Positions 46,425-56,785 of a stretch of 64,000 bases of DNA are shown here, in pieces. Position numbers and translations under genes: made by a program. The stretch comes from an uncultured Roseicyclus sp. Its GTDB lineage: Bacteria > Pseudomonadota > Alphaproteobacteria > Rhodobacterales > Rhodobacteraceae. Location of the stretch: NCBI GenBank assembly GCA_947489665.1, contig CANLEH010000001.1, positions 1,646,501 through 1,710,500 of the forward strand, in the 5' to 3' direction. Each line of letters opens with the position of its first letter. Within the stretch, counting starts at the first letter, position 1. Under the pieces are notes generated by a model. The model had not been told where the DNA came from and searched no databases. It worked only from the letters and a program-made list of their open reading frames with translations.

Positions 46425-46500
46425 GCCCCTATAGCTCAGCTGGTAGAGCAACTGATTTGTAATCAGTAGGTCCGCGGTTCGAGTCCGTGTGGGGGCACCA
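46425..46500 (+). tRNA. tRNA-Thr (anticodon TGT), encoded CCA
   Basis: GCCCCTATAGCTCAGCTGGTAGAGCAACTGATTTGTAATCAGTAGGTCCGCGGTTCGAGTCCGTGTGGGGGCACCA; anticodon stem ACTGA/TCAGT, loop TTTGTAA. Confidence 0.95.
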
Positions 46501-49800: not shown

Positions 49801-51531
49801 GACGACATCGCCACGGCGGCCTCGGCAGCTGAGATGGAAAGCGTTTTGAAGCTCTGTGAGGCGCGGGGCCTGAAGCCGCGGATGCTGGAATGGCACTACC
49901 GGTCCAGGGACCCCTCGCTGATCCGAGTGTCCAATGCAGAGTTTTATGAGGATCGGTTGGTCTTGCCGCCGTCCCCCCTGGAGAAAGATGAAAACTACGG
50001 CTTGAAGTTCCGAAAAGTGCCAGGCGTCTATGCGTCGGCCAGCAGTGGCCTTGGCCGGGCTGGCACGAACCGGATCGAGGCTGAGGAGATAGCGGCCGCC
50101 GTGGCGCAACATGCACGCGACTGGCCGAAACTGTCGTTGGGGGTGGTCGCGTTTTCCAAGGCGCAAGCCACGATGATTACAGAAGTGCTTGAGCTCGCGC
50201 GCCGCGACGATGCGGTTCTAGACGGCTTCTTGCGCGCCGGAAAAACTGAGGATCTGTTCGTCAAGAACATCGAAAACGTCCAGGGTGACGAGCGCGATGT
50301 TATCTTTGTTTCCGTGGGGTACGGGCCAGCGGAGCCGGGTGGACGTTTACGCAGTATGAGCTTCGGCCCGATCAACAGCGATGGCGGAGAACGGCGTTTG
50401 AACGTGCTGTTTTCCCGATCCCGGTTGCGTTGTGAGATCTTTGCGTCATTCGATCCGGGCGATATCGATCTTGGGCGAACGCAGAAGGAAGGGCCGCGCG
50501 TGCTGAAACGGTTCCTCGATTATGCCCGGTCGGGCATCATGGAGGATAGCGCGCCGACCGGTGAGGGGGCCGATAGCCCCTTCGAAGAGGATGTAGCGCG
50601 TGAAATCCGCAAGTTCGGATATCTGGCGGATCATCAGGTAGGCTCAGCCGGTTTCCGTATTGACCTTGGTGTGCGGCACCCTGAGCGTCCAGGGCAGTAC
50701 TTTTTGGCCGTGGAATGCGACGGAGCAACCTATCATTCGGCCCTCTGGGCGCGGGAAAGGGACCGTTTGCGCCAAGAGGTACTGGAACATCTGGGATGGA
50801 GATTCCACAGGATTTGGAGCACCGATTGGTTCCATCGGCGCGAACAGGAAATCGCAAAGCTGGCGCGCGTATTAGAAATGGCACGCACGGTCGTGGGCGA
50901 CGGGATTAAGGTCGAAGGTGCCAACGAATACGCCCCGGTGGACGAAGAAGCCCTGCCTTCTGGCGACCCTAACGAGATTAATATCGCGGATGTCCGTATC
51001 TCGGTGCCGACTTATGAGCGCGCCAATGTCCGGGTGAATACATCGGTCGAGCCGCATCTGGTACCACTTCCCCGGATGGCGGAGATTGTGGCGCGGGTGA
51101 TCGAAGAAGAAGGACCAATTCATCTGGACGAGGTTGCGCGACGTGTCGCGACCGCTTTTGGCAGGGCAAAGGCCGGAAAGCGCATCGTCGAGGCGACGCG
51201 TCTGGCCGTTCGTCATGCGAATCCGCTGGGACCTGAGTTGCACAGGGACGGGGAATTCGTAATGACCCGTGCACAATATGAGGTGACGCCGGTTCGGGAT
51301 CGATCCGATGAAAGCGACGGGGTCGTGAAGGCCGAGTATCTGCCGCCCTCAGAGATCGTGGCCGCAGCAACCTTGGTGCGACAGGAAAGTGGCGCTATGG
51401 ACCGCGATGAGTTGATCAGGACGGTCCGGCAAGTCCTTGGCTTCAAGCGGGCGGGCGCAAAGATGTACACGCGCATCGACGAGGCCCTATCGGAGGCCGG
51501 GTTTGAAATGATAGCCTTAGAAGGCAGTTAA
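46819..51531 (+). CDS. DUF4011 - SF1 (DNA2/NAM7-like) helicase - Vsr/MTES_1575-like endonuclease - DUF3320 protein; Hhe-like anti-phage protein candidate
   Basis: N-term KLLDTGTRNRMVHV; Walker A QGPPGTGKSQTIANMI; DEAS box LLIIDEASQVRPEDALG; GDTQQLPP; ENVQGDERDVIFVSVGYG; nuclease FEEDVAREIRKFGYLADHQVGSAGFRIDLGVRHPERPGQYFLAVECDG; C-term DUF3320-like. Confidence 0.85.
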   Translation: MQQNYGPTIVRALEQARSKLLDTGTRNRMVHVRRENTRANCLNIINERSEDVFSILNGGTRKMRFKGMGKDRTAVEDGELLLAVPDETLEEGSDRYTDQILETPLGPEGLARRLLRLSIAAKTAEEEQGLNILYLAMGFLRWKESEASDIVREAPLLLVPVDLVRNERTSAFDIRMRDDDLSANLPLRERLMQDEGISLPELPDGDDLSPEAYFDQVAEAIASKPSWDIDRNGMQLGFFSFAKLLMHRDLNPEEWSGAAFEDNALLTGLLEAGFEAEDPLFGAQDRLDQHLDPAEIIQVVDADASQTKVIEEVRRGASMVVQGPPGTGKSQTIANMIAGAVHDGKTVLFVAEKMAALSVVHDRLVKVGLRDVCLELHSRTANKKALARELGRTLMASATKRDGPNETSRLRQDRDELNRIVDMLHRPSGQSGDSAFQTMSDIVGFIGAEIAPPRIDATGLERMGAEERSECVAAIERFLDACNAVPAPDRHPFRATTKLDLQPTDLTRLQLDIGDALDAILEWHAEAERCSGSLSRPAALTLEAGKSMAQGLRVLTEAPPDAADSVRALFAASKNPRLAEGLDRGAAWRQARTRAEGDFAPSAFDTPTGQMRSALVQGQGSIWSRMFGPYRKASKALAGLLVRPLPKAPGDRLALIDALEDVQAKRRALADDEGWLQRNLVEVWRGESTDFEGLQGQCDWLRRLLDHLPFETAEQVIAVSGLGAVARENADRLDQTADRVDAKVRIVMDRLGLDLAEDGSVADITGVPITNLQDRLTGMQRNPGGYADWAGFVRASAEAAGKGGGAIVEAVRTGKLPSERAVAEFLYACAEARWADIRAAQPDLNGLSNKDRSALVASFQARDRARLQEGRDAVLTRHMDQMPKGATGEMGILRGEMGKKTRHRPIRWLMTHAGSMLQRIKPVMLMSPLSVAQFLPPGKVSFDLLIIDEASQVRPEDALGVVARARQIVVVGDTQQLPPTNFFSRLVEDVEDDEDDIATAASAAEMESVLKLCEARGLKPRMLEWHYRSRDPSLIRVSNAEFYEDRLVLPPSPLEKDENYGLKFRKVPGVYASASSGLGRAGTNRIEAEEIAAAVAQHARDWPKLSLGVVAFSKAQATMITEVLELARRDDAVLDGFLRAGKTEDLFVKNIENVQGDERDVIFVSVGYGPAEPGGRLRSMSFGPINSDGGERRLNVLFSRSRLRCEIFASFDPGDIDLGRTQKEGPRVLKRFLDYARSGIMEDSAPTGEGADSPFEEDVAREIRKFGYLADHQVGSAGFRIDLGVRHPERPGQYFLAVECDGATYHSALWARERDRLRQEVLEHLGWRFHRIWSTDWFHRREQEIAKLARVLEMARTVVGDGIKVEGANEYAPVDEEALPSGDPNEINIADVRISVPTYERANVRVNTSVEPHLVPLPRMAEIVARVIEEEGPIHLDEVARRVATAFGRAKAGKRIVEATRLAVRHANPLGPELHRDGEFVMTRAQYEVTPVRDRSDESDGVVKAEYLPPSEIVAAATLVRQESGAMDRDELIRTVRQVLGFKRAGAKMYTRIDEALSEAGFEMIALEGS

Positions 51532-51567: not shown

Positions 51568-52929
51568 CTATGTGTCAAATTCTTCAGCATCCAGGGCAAT
51601 CGCGCTGGTAGATACATCTTGGCCCGTCGAGCGATCGCTTTTGAGGTGAGGTGCCTTGCGAACCCATGCGCTCAAATGTGCGCCTACTTCACCATAAAAG
51701 AGCGGCACAATGCGTTCGAGCTCAGTCACGAAATTTGTTTGCTGCATGAACTTAGCCCCAAGCTTTTCCGAAACAAAAATGTGGAAGCTGTGTGGGGAAA
51801 GATGTTCTTTTCCCTTTGCTGCAAGGTCGGGTTCGTTCCTCAAGTCTGAAACAGAATATTGTGTCGGCTCACTTGTTCCCGGCCAAAGTAACCGCAAAAA
51901 CAGACTTTCAGAATCAGTGTTCTTGAGTTGGCGCAACACCCAGTTCAGCCGAGCCTTCGTGGATTTCTTGTCCTCTGGTGCTCGCAATGACATTCCAACG
52001 TCGATAGATCTACGCATCAAGTCCACGCAAACCTCAATTGGGGCGGCAGCGTCCGGGATTTGCAGGTCGCACAGCAGCTTTGAAGTACCTTTCAGTAGTG
52101 CAAATTCATCGCGTTGACGTTGTCCGGGGTTCCCCCTGTGACTTCGGGGTAGTTTCTCGGTGACAGTCATTCCGGTCATGCGGCTCAGGATTAGTGATAA
52201 GTCGCGGGTTTCCTGATGCCACGCTTCCAAGACCTTAGCGGCCACAGGAGACTTTGCCGGTATTGCACCTCCGCTAGAGACAAGCTTGTTCAATTCGGAC
52301 CACTCTTTCGGCATCCGATCAAAGCCCTTTACCCCAGCGCTTTCGTGGCTAAGGAAACGTCTTAACTCGTTCAATAGCAGCAACTGATCCACGTCTGCGA
52401 TGCTTTCAGTGGAAAGCAACAAATCCGCTACAGTGAGAATGTGCATCCAAGACCAGTGGTACACTGGTACTTTGGACCGGCCTTTACGGATTGCCGCCAA
52501 CGGGTGGCTTTGAGGAGATGTAGCAAATTGGTTGGAAATCGTGATGACACAATCAATACCGTTGTCTTTGGCAAGGTTTCGGTACCGTTCAATTTGGTCC
52601 GGCTCTAAGTCACTGTTCCCGACTTTCGCTTCAACTATTGCTCGCCATTGACGGTTCCCGACTGAAAGAACGATCAGTCCATCTGGTCTTTCCTTGATTT
52701 CCGTTGGCTGTTTCTCAAATACGATTTCGGTGAAGGTTTGGATCTTGGCGCGTCTTCCTACTTTTTGACCGACTGATGCCAACAGTTGCGCCCCGAATTC
52801 ATCGATCTTGCTCATGCAAGCCAATACGATCGAAGTTGTTCGTCCCTCCTTCGAAGTGGTCGACAACACTGGAAATAGGCGCGCGATTTCTCCTTGAGTA
52901 AGGTAGTCTGGCAATTGGTCGTTTCTCAT
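51568..52929 (-). CDS. PD-(D/E)XK nuclease-like protein of unknown function
   Basis: RPDGLIVLSVGNRQWRAIVEAKVGNSDLEPDQIERYRNLAKDNGIDCVITISNQFA (PDG...ExK); visibly lower GC than surroundings. Confidence 0.65.
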   Translation of the reverse strand: MRNDQLPDYLTQGEIARLFPVLSTTSKEGRTTSIVLACMSKIDEFGAQLLASVGQKVGRRAKIQTFTEIVFEKQPTEIKERPDGLIVLSVGNRQWRAIVEAKVGNSDLEPDQIERYRNLAKDNGIDCVITISNQFATSPQSHPLAAIRKGRSKVPVYHWSWMHILTVADLLLSTESIADVDQLLLLNELRRFLSHESAGVKGFDRMPKEWSELNKLVSSGGAIPAKSPVAAKVLEAWHQETRDLSLILSRMTGMTVTEKLPRSHRGNPGQRQRDEFALLKGTSKLLCDLQIPDAAAPIEVCVDLMRRSIDVGMSLRAPEDKKSTKARLNWVLRQLKNTDSESLFLRLLWPGTSEPTQYSVSDLRNEPDLAAKGKEHLSPHSFHIFVSEKLGAKFMQQTNFVTELERIVPLFYGEVGAHLSAWVRKAPHLKSDRSTGQDVSTSAIALDAEEFDT

Positions 52930-53323
52930 TCGGCATTCCTCTCCCACAATTTTACTTCCGCGTTATTGGAATAATGGACTGCCGCGTCAGTCGAACTGTC
53001 AAGGAATTAAAGCTGGGCGATGTGTCGATCTTGGTTCACCCCAGCAACCACAACAAATGCCACCGGCAAGAAAACACTACTTTGGGTGTGGCGCACGAGA
53101 CACGGCGTTGATCGGCGGATTCTTGCGCTCCCTAGCCGGTGGCGCGCCACGACCTAATCTCCAGCCAACACCGCATAACGAAACGAAAATCCGAATCGAC
53201 GAGCATGCGATTTCGGAGATGTGTCTGGGGGGACGCATATTGGGAAAACAGCGGTCTGCGCCGCTTCTGGCGCCGTTTTGCGACTGTCATACATGCGCAC
53301 TGTCCCCCGCGTGGACACTTGCA

Positions 53324-56300
53324 ATGGCATGTGTCGCGGGCCTTGCTGCGGTGAGCCAGGGCGGGCCAGTGCACGCGCAATCCTGCGCCGGTGACGGACG
53401 ATTGGTCAGCGGTGTTTGCGTTCCTGCAATCACAGCGCCAAGTCCTCGCGTTGCGGATGCGCCCACGGGATTTGTGATCGCGGTCGATGGAGCTGTCCTG
53501 GATGGCGACGACGCGGTTCGCGATATCGTACGCCGCACCGATGTGCGCTTGGCCGACGCGGATATCGAAGTGGTATTTGACGGCCTAGGGGCTGTCCCGC
53601 GGCTTGATCTAGAAATTGTTGGGGAACCTCGCGCTCACGCACCGGGCGATACAGCGACCCTGCAATCGGCGACCAACTATCCCGCCTACATCGCCAGGTC
53701 TGAGGTCCGGCTTTTGGATCTTGGTGCCGTCGGCGGGCCACGTACCGTTCAAGTGATCCCTATCCAGACCAATGGTACCGCGCAGATCACCGTTCCGGAT
53801 GGGGAGCGGTTGGCCGTGATCCACCGCGTTTATGATGCGGAAGGCCGGTACGACGAGACCTACCCCGTTCCGCTGAGTGAGGCTGACCGGAGGCCGTTGG
53901 GCGATGATGTGGAAGATGGCTCGGACCTAACGGCGCGGTCGCGCATTCCGGTCCATGGTGGAGCAGTGACAGTACGCGGATCATCGATCGTTCCGGGCGC
54001 GCGAGTTTCGGCGTTGGGCGAGGTTGTGCGACCGGATCCGTCTGGTGGTTTCGTGCTGCAACGCATTCTGCCACCTGGTGAATATGGCGTAGACGTTAAC
54101 GTGGTTGGCCCCGGACAATCCGTCGACCTGGTGCGCGATATCGACATCCCGCGCGCGGAATGGTTCACAACGGGGCTGGCAGATTTCTACCTGGGCTGGC
54201 GTGAGGTCGAGGGCGAAGGGGGTGAGACGTGGAACAGCGCGCGGCTGGCCTTCTACATCGATGGACGCACGGCAAGCGGCTATGAGATCACCGCGCAGGC
54301 GGATACCGGCGAGGGCGAGATCGAGGATATCTTCCGCCGTCTCGAAGAACGTGACCCGCGGTCCACGGTGCAACGGATCGACCCGGATGACCTCTATCCG
54401 ACCTATGGCGACGACTCGACGATTGTGGACAACACGCCGACCTCGGGGCGGCTTTACCTGCGGATCGAGCGGGACGGAAACCACTTCCTGTGGGGGGATT
54501 TCGAGGCCGATCTGGGGGACGGCACGCTGGTACGCAATGACCGGTCGCTTTACGGTGCGCAGGCCTATTGGGCGACGGCGGACACCACGGCGCGCGGCGA
54601 AGCGCGGCTAGCGGGAACGGCCTATGCAGCAAGCCCGGATATGCTGGCGCAGAGGGACGTGTTCCTTGGCACCGGTGGCTCGGTCTACGTGTTGCAAAGG
54701 CAGGACATTGGAATTGCGACCGAGGTTCTGAGCATCGAGGTCCGTGATCCGGTGACGGGGCGAGTGATCGACATCGTGCGGCTTGCACCGGGGGTCGACT
54801 ATTCGATCAACTATCTGCAGGGCATCGTGACGCTGTCTGAGCCTTTGGCGAGCCGCGTCGGCGATGCCGGCATCGTCACATCACCCGGCGATACGCCAGA
54901 ATTGCGACTGGTTGCCCAATACGAATACACGCCGACGCTGGCGGATGTGGATGGATACTCGGTCGGTGGACGGGTCGAGGGGTGGATCACGGACGATGTG
55001 CGTATCGGCGTATCGGGCATGGTTGAGCAGACCGGCACGGCGGATCAGACAGTGATCGGCGCGGACGTGGAATGGCGCATTGGTGAGAATAGCCATGTGC
55101 GTTTGGAATATGCGGAAAGCGACGGGCCGGGATTTGGCTCTACATTCTCCGCCGATGGCGGCCTGGTGTTTGATACGGTCGGGCCCAATGGCGGATCGGG
55201 GCAGGCGGTGCGGGCCGATGTGCGGCTGGACTTCGCAGATATCGGCCTGGCGGGTGAGGGTGCCCTGGGCGGCTATTTCGAAGAGCGCGGCGAAGGGTTT
55301 TCCAGCCTCGACTATTCGATCACGGCAGCCACGGGGGATGAGACCCTTTGGGGTGTATTCATCGACGCGGAGCCGCGCGAAGGCCTTCGTTACTCCCTGA
55401 GCTACGACGATTATTCCAACGGCGTGGGCGAACACGACCGCCGCGCGGAAGGTGAAGTCGAGTTTGCCCTGAACGCGCGTTATACGCTCGGCTTCGGGCT
55501 TGAGCATCTGAATCGCGACCGGGCCGCATCGGTGGGTGAGCAGGGGCGGCGCACCGATATCGGCTCGCGGCTGACCTACTCTTATGCGGAAAACGGCGAC
55601 GTCTGGGTCTTCGGGCAGGCGACCATCGACAATCAGGGCCTTGAGAACAATGACCGCATCGGCATCGGCGCGTCCTACGCGTTCGACAATGGCTGGCAGG
55701 TTGAAGGCGAGATTTCCGGCGGCGCCATGGGGCCAGGTGGGCTCTTGCGGTTCAGCTATGATGACGGAGCGGGATCAACATCGTACTTCGGGTATGAGTT
55801 GGATCCGGGCCGCACGATTTCAGGTGTGACGCTTGATGGCCGCGACAATGGCCGGTTCATTGCGGGTATGCGACGTCAGGTGAACGACCAGCTGACCTAT
55901 TTCGGTGAGAACACCTACGACATGTTCGGGCGCCATAACGCGCTGACGACGGCCTATGGCCTGACCTACCAACAGACAGAGTTCCTGAGCTACACGGCGG
56001 CGGTCGAATTCGGGTCTGTCGATGATCGGTTCGACAATGATTTCGACCGCACGGCGATCAGCCTTGGCGTGCGGTACGAGGACGAGATGCTGACGGCAGG
56101 CGCGCGGCTGGAATACCGGACGGAGACGGGCGAACGCTCGGGCCTGCCGCTGGACAGCGATACCATCGCGCTGACGCTGGATGGGCGGTACCTGATCAGT
56201 GAACACGAACGTGTGGTTTTCACGTTCGAGGGGATTGATACCGATACCGACGAAAGCTCCATCCTCGATGGCACGTTTGTGGATGCCAGTGTCGGATATG

Positions 56301-56785
56301 CGTTCCGACCCACAAATACCGACCGCCTGAACATGCTGGTGCGGTATCGCTATCTGTTTGATGATGTCGGCCAACGCCTTGATGATACCGACGAATTGGG
56401 CCCGCGCCAACGCAGCCACGTATTCAGTGCGGATGCGAGTTACCTTTGGGATGAGCAATGGCGCATCGGGGCTCGGATCGGATTCCGCCTGACCGAGGCG
56501 GCTGCCACTGAGGCCGATCCGTTCACCCAGAACGATGCCGTACTTTCCGTGGTGAATGCCCGGTACCACATGCTTCACAATTGGGACGCGCTGCTGGAAT
56601 GGCGGGCGCTGCATACGGTTCAGGCGGGTGGGACGGACATCGGCCTATTAGGTGCGGTATCGCGCCAGATTAGCGACGGCATCAGCTTGGGTGTGGGCTA
56701 TAATTTCGGCACCTTCTCGGACGATCTGACGGATCTGACGCGAGACGATCAGGGCCTGTTCATCAATCTGACAGCGAGTTTTTGA
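53324..56785 (+). CDS. Predicted outer-membrane beta-barrel protein (start uncertain within ORF 53057..56785)
   Basis: Signal-like MACVAGLAAVSQGGPVHAQ; alternating-hydrophobic barrel strands (e.g. GENSHVRLEYAESDGPGFG, RYTLGFGLEHLNRDRA); C-terminal ...LFINLTASF*. Confidence 0.7.
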   Translation: MACVAGLAAVSQGGPVHAQSCAGDGRLVSGVCVPAITAPSPRVADAPTGFVIAVDGAVLDGDDAVRDIVRRTDVRLADADIEVVFDGLGAVPRLDLEIVGEPRAHAPGDTATLQSATNYPAYIARSEVRLLDLGAVGGPRTVQVIPIQTNGTAQITVPDGERLAVIHRVYDAEGRYDETYPVPLSEADRRPLGDDVEDGSDLTARSRIPVHGGAVTVRGSSIVPGARVSALGEVVRPDPSGGFVLQRILPPGEYGVDVNVVGPGQSVDLVRDIDIPRAEWFTTGLADFYLGWREVEGEGGETWNSARLAFYIDGRTASGYEITAQADTGEGEIEDIFRRLEERDPRSTVQRIDPDDLYPTYGDDSTIVDNTPTSGRLYLRIERDGNHFLWGDFEADLGDGTLVRNDRSLYGAQAYWATADTTARGEARLAGTAYAASPDMLAQRDVFLGTGGSVYVLQRQDIGIATEVLSIEVRDPVTGRVIDIVRLAPGVDYSINYLQGIVTLSEPLASRVGDAGIVTSPGDTPELRLVAQYEYTPTLADVDGYSVGGRVEGWITDDVRIGVSGMVEQTGTADQTVIGADVEWRIGENSHVRLEYAESDGPGFGSTFSADGGLVFDTVGPNGGSGQAVRADVRLDFADIGLAGEGALGGYFEERGEGFSSLDYSITAATGDETLWGVFIDAEPREGLRYSLSYDDYSNGVGEHDRRAEGEVEFALNARYTLGFGLEHLNRDRAASVGEQGRRTDIGSRLTYSYAENGDVWVFGQATIDNQGLENNDRIGIGASYAFDNGWQVEGEISGGAMGPGGLLRFSYDDGAGSTSYFGYELDPGRTISGVTLDGRDNGRFIAGMRRQVNDQLTYFGENTYDMFGRHNALTTAYGLTYQQTEFLSYTAAVEFGSVDDRFDNDFDRTAISLGVRYEDEMLTAGARLEYRTETGERSGLPLDSDTIALTLDGRYLISEHERVVFTFEGIDTDTDESSILDGTFVDASVGYAFRPTNTDRLNMLVRYRYLFDDVGQRLDDTDELGPRQRSHVFSADASYLWDEQWRIGARIGFRLTEAAATEADPFTQNDAVLSVVNARYHMLHNWDALLEWRALHTVQAGGTDIGLLGAVSRQISDGISLGVGYNFGTFSDDLTDLTRDDQGLFINLTASF

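Follow-up and report, generated by a model that had tools for sequence, protein, structure and literature searches.

The minus-strand gene at positions 51568..52929 of the window (the whole stretch of 64,000 nucleotides that was analysed) encodes a complete 453-aa protein, P0001, which belongs to a so far uncatalogued family of PD-(D/E)XK nucleases that stand alone. On balance, we lean towards the reading that its members are horizontally mobile DNA nucleases which depend on metal, work as single genes and protect against phages or other mobile DNA. The nuclease moves between bacteria and phages alone and repeatedly adjoins defence genes, and it is therefore probably a self-contained defence enzyme and not the partner of the helicase encoded next to it. 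None of the domain, defence and phage libraries consulted contains the family, yet it occurs in ~3-6% of the sampled genomes of the class and phylum. If P0001 defends alone, it would represent a compact single-gene anti-phage nuclease with an undescribed type of recognition domain.

The gene was delimited by its open reading frame and by full-length relatives. It runs from an ATG at 52929 to a stop at 51568 over 453 codons with no internal stop, and a probable ribosome-binding sequence, GGGAGAGG (52938..52945, minus strand), assigned from its position, lies 8 nt 5' of the ATG. No promoter or terminator above chance level was found around the gene. Judged from the alignments, the frame is not due to chance, because 53 distinct relatives align with it over almost its full length. 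Its GC content is 50.1% (GC3 52.6%), compared with 59.9% (GC3 68.4%) for the adjacent helicase gene and 61.0% for the window, and this difference suggests that the nuclease gene was acquired separately. The initial annotation had described a gene AT-richer than its neighbours and placed tail to tail with the helicase gene, and this description holds. The gene is intact, its GC content is 50% against 60-61% in its surroundings, and the stop codons of the two genes (that of the helicase at 51531) are separated by 36 bp.

The N-terminal part of P0001 is a predicted PD-(D/E)XK nuclease. An AlphaFold model of the protein built from 21 relatives (mean pLDDT 84, pTM 0.70), combined with Foldseek searches, places the nuclease core at residues ~62-165 (52435..52746, minus strand). 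P0001 has the acidic residue, the (D/E)xK motif and the core alpha/beta fold by which the PD-(D/E)XK superfamily is recognised. Residue conservation defines a putative active site of E68, D83, E100-x-K102 and Q112-x-x-x-Y116 (52582..52728, minus strand). No substitution of D83, W95, E100, K102, Q112 or Y116 occurs among the 53 distinct aligned sequences, and E68 is kept in 52 of them; the active site stays invariant in relatives down to 27% identity. A nuclease-like core had been proposed from three peptides, which correspond to residues 81-88, 95-105 and 112-136, and the modelled fold and fully conserved catalytic residues agree with that proposal. Loss of the catalytic D/E-x-K residues within the family, which had been named as grounds against a new defence system, was seen in none of the relatives.

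Foldseek matched the core with the restriction enzymes EcoT38I (probability 0.98-0.99), PaqCI, MspJI and BamHI, and in BFVD with phage PD-(D/E)XK nucleases (probability 1.00). Given that the best matches are Type II enzymes (EcoT38I, PaqCI, BamHI), P0001 might be a Type II restriction endonuclease of the orphan kind, cleaving unmodified DNA at one fixed sequence. We regard this as very improbable. The similarity to Type II enzymes is confined to the nuclease core, with TM-scores over the whole protein of at most 0.28. Moreover, no recurrent methyltransferase was found among the neighbours of 55 nuclease loci, and hosts lacking such a companion enzyme would be cut.

The C-terminal ~220 aa are predicted to form a separate, conserved and confidently modelled domain with no convincing match in the PDB. 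Residues 205-428 (51646..52317, minus strand), when modelled alone, gave a pLDDT of 93.5 and a pTM of 0.88, and the best PDB matches of this model were type III secretion chaperones at probabilities of at most 0.54. Searches of P0001 against Pfam, PADLOC, NCBIfam and PHROGs profiles gave no match, and no solved relative was found among PDB sequences. The earlier remark that the C-terminal region resembles nothing recognisable was thus confirmed against all of these collections and by structure search. A YbjN or secretion-chaperone fold was considered for this domain and not adopted: the topology looks alike and weak PDB matches point the same way, but the profile comparison was negative, and we assign no fold to the domain.

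The gene facing P0001 (46819..51531, plus strand) encodes a 1570-aa protein in which profile matches identify DUF4011, SF1 helicase, MTES_1575 REase and DUF3320 regions, an arrangement of the PDC-S37/ProA kind. Its best full-length match is the PADLOC model PDC-S37 (1757 bits, residues 7-1560), and it scores 1314 bits against NCBIfam ProA, below the model cut-off of 1500. The label 'Hhe-like' given to it initially is therefore imprecise: an Hhe match does exist, with its best single stretch at residues ~770-1361, but PDC-S37 and ProA match better and over the full length. A literature search for PDC-S37 found nothing. The helicase gene, which is intact in the sister species G006, is likely a defence gene by itself.

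The initial annotation also raised the possibility that nuclease and helicase work together as a two-component defence module. The genes are only 36 bp apart, tail to tail, the pair is found at the same place in G006, and two further genomes (G176 and G372) contain both families, though on different contigs. Nevertheless, we consider a partnership highly unlikely. Among 63 loci of at least 9 kb that carry a nuclease relative, a single one has a helicase of the PDC-S37/ProA kind, and this is the G006 copy of the window locus, so the co-occurrence with DUF4011 helicases expected of a module failed to appear. A generic helicase is encoded at two other loci of one genome (L035 and L075), with 23% identity to the window helicase. 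In G006 itself, the helicase is complete and 94% identical, whereas the nuclease gene is reduced to fragments with a stop (G006:C1:1528010-1528242); G006 can do without the nuclease while its helicase gene stays whole. The two genes also differ in base composition, and they lie on opposite strands and therefore form no operon.

In both G000 and G006, the two genes are flanked on one side by a tRNA-Thr (TGT) gene (46425..46500, plus strand, in the window), at the edge of a small accessory stretch, and on the other by a gene for an outer-membrane protein. In three other congeners the outer-membrane-protein gene is present and the nuclease and helicase genes are both absent. No attachment-site repeats were found around the tRNA-Thr gene. 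The helicase is probably a second, independent defence gene that shares an insertion spot with P0001. The flanking outer-membrane protein (window 53057-56785, plus strand) is predicted to have 1242 aa, and its family match is almost nil (weak OMP_b-brl).

In GTDB genomes, relatives of P0001 were found at 32 loci with 39-74% identity, and those within Rhodobacterales are 60-74% identical. Four of the 101 nearest genomes carry the family; at the level of the class it occurs in 22 of 385 genomes, and at that of the phylum in 12 of 399. Further relatives are encoded on 11 actinobacterial plasmids (27-29% identity) and on two IMG/VR contigs; a protein search of the phage-record collection gave none. 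Copies from Roseobacteraceae and Parvularculaceae are ~96% identical, those from Roseibium and the Ruegeria group are 89% identical, and strain KLH11 has two copies (L012 and L018). The gene is thus patchily distributed and horizontally moved.

An alternative explanation is that P0001 is a cellular nuclease of DNA repair or recombination with no role in defence. Its good sequence conservation, the stable single-gene sites in some genera and the QxxxY motif, which is also seen in repair nucleases, would fit such a role. However, the patchy presence, the decay in the sister species and the occurrence on phage contigs and plasmids and near defence genes make a repair function improbable. For the defence reading, in turn, the rather slow evolution within Rhodobacterales and the empty search of the phage-record collection are points on the opposite side.

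The neighbourhoods of the relatives are diverse. Many copies stand alone among housekeeping genes, for instance beside alaS in Thalassospira and beside a rimO-like gene, read from sequence, at two loci (L026 and L171), but a substantial minority are located by defence genes or in phage elements. In Tateyamaria (L025), the nuclease stop codon and the zorA start codon overlap (TAGTG), and zorB, zorC and zorD come next, giving a full Zorya I operon. Other relatives are found near a patatin-like CBASS effector (L008), an AriA-like ATPase (L037) and an AAA_13 ATPase (L012), while a TerD-fused homologue (L039) has a CBASS synthetase gene nearby, together with ThiF and JAB genes. At L167, a SIR2-like gene, assigned by sequence reading and not by profile, lies 69 bp downstream of the nuclease gene in the same orientation. 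Among phage settings, an IMG/VR contig (L088) has the nuclease gene directly 5' of HNH endonuclease, terminase and portal genes, two loci (L089 and L035) combine it with terminase or tail genes, and one (L007) with a head-morphogenesis gene.

Several proteins encoded at these loci deserve mention in their own right. The SIR2-like protein that follows the nuclease gene has 874 aa (L167:6877-9501, minus strand) and is probably of a defence type. Two proteins with neither Pfam nor PADLOC matches, one of 1017 aa by the AAA_13 ATPase (L012:11571-14621, minus strand) and one of 280 aa by the AriA-like ATPase (L037:10968-11807, minus strand), may be undescribed defence components. At six loci (L012, 9168-9836, minus strand; L013, L014, L016, L018 and L019), one of them in Roseibium, a gene read divergently from that of the nuclease encodes a 223-aa membrane protein with no Pfam match (66-81% identity), which may be an accessory of this nuclease sub-group.

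Close neighbours were compared with random genes by PADLOC, in both cases a small sample with 25 families listed and their members partly named. Among the matches listed, 150 close neighbours gave Zorya, CBASS, DRT-, PD-T7-4-, PDC-S06- and AriA/Ptu-type models; 146 random ORFs of related genomes gave, among the matches listed, UvrD helicase models of the GajB type and a single RTasHel, and these control matches may be housekeeping helicases. The comparison is an indication that the nuclease family is associated with defence genes. A random scatter of homologues with no such enrichment had been named as grounds against a defence role. The copies do not show so plain a scatter: a substantial minority adjoin defence genes or lie in phage elements, though many others stand alone among housekeeping genes, and the enrichment is an indication from a small comparison. 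No neighbour family across the 55 loci recurs as a functional partner of the nuclease. The sole widely recurrent neighbour cluster turned out to consist of unrelated ABC transporters.

A connection with Ter systems emerged from two sources. All ten annotated relatives on actinobacterial plasmids are named TerD family protein, and the three that were read contain a TerD domain followed by a P0001-like region. In addition, TerY-P triads adjoin the nuclease in two genera (L022 and L016). Such a triad comprises a VWA protein, a PP2C phosphatase and a kinase with a C-terminal zinc ribbon, both at these loci and as described earlier, and TerY-P has been linked to predicted DNA restriction systems (PMC11090510). 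The family could accordingly supply the nuclease effector of a Ter stress or defence pathway, in which TerD or TerY-P would sense a signal and the nuclease would cut, with stand-alone copies using Ter components encoded elsewhere. We judge this to be unlikely for the family as a whole, as neither P0001 nor any other protein of the window's genome has a TerD domain, no TerY-P genes stand with P0001, and the 12 of 372 class genomes with TerD include a single nuclease-positive one (G184). The Ter link is real for some relatives and is not general. A broader proposal, which we also find improbable, is that of a swappable DNA-cutting effector for different alarm systems, Ter being the original one; its C-terminal domain would respond to phosphorylation by TerY-P or to a metabolite bound by TerD, and Zorya, CBASS or SIR2 loci would have taken over stand-alone members. 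The TerD fusion and TerY-P adjacency would make testable the older idea that Ter systems process foreign DNA. Separately, the annotation 'TerD family protein' misses the C-terminal PD-(D/E)XK module of the proteins encoded at L038, L039 (7233-9272) and L040 on Streptomyces and Rhodococcus plasmids.

The preferred reading, a single-gene defence nuclease, draws on the nuclease fold with its invariant active site, the patchy distribution with horizontal movement, the Zorya, TerY-P, CBASS, AriA-like, SIR2-like and AAA_13 contexts together with the phage contigs, and the single-gene arrangement with no recurrent functional partner. The mobility, patchiness and contexts make the stand-alone nuclease system suggested by the initial annotation plausible as a predicted role, against which stand the many copies between housekeeping genes and the small size of the comparison, among the matches listed, behind the defence enrichment. 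The N-terminal domain is predicted to be a DNA nuclease that uses a divalent metal. Its QxxxY motif, which occurs in the RecB, lambda-exonuclease and Cas4 group, makes it plausible that DNA ends are where cutting takes place or starts. As a sensor or specificity module, the C-terminal domain probably recognises a feature of invading DNA or an infection signal and thereby licenses cutting, and with such gating no methyltransferase, ATPase or antitoxin would be needed. Since no constant methyltransferase, ATPase or antitoxin accompanies the family, a self-sufficient gated enzyme, either Type IV-like or infection-triggered, is favoured.

Compared with known systems, P0001 has in common with Hhe, ProA and PDC-S37 proteins only the neighbourhood, the adjacent gene being one of them; it contains no helicase, has no sequence relation to these proteins, and its family exists without such helicases. 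DUF4268 (PF14088) proteins have by eye a similar layout, with an N-terminal REase-like core carrying QxxxY and a C-terminal alpha/beta domain, but hmmscan gave no match and profile comparison indicated no homology (hhalign probability <1%), and membership was rejected. With EcoT38I, PaqCI and MspJI, P0001 shares the predicted core fold, the D...ExK residues and the layout of a nuclease plus a second domain; in contrast, there is no sequence homology, their recognition domains are unlike its C-terminal domain, and P0001 has no methyltransferase companion. In the Zorya type I locus of Tateyamaria, the overlapping nuclease and zorA genes look like one operon, although the nuclease is not a core component of Zorya and was found with it at this locus only. 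The TerD-fused plasmid proteins of Streptomyces and Rhodococcus (for example, WP_159929459.1) carry an N-terminal TerD domain that is absent from P0001, but they are true relatives that align with its residues 16-427 at 27-29% identity and have the same active site.
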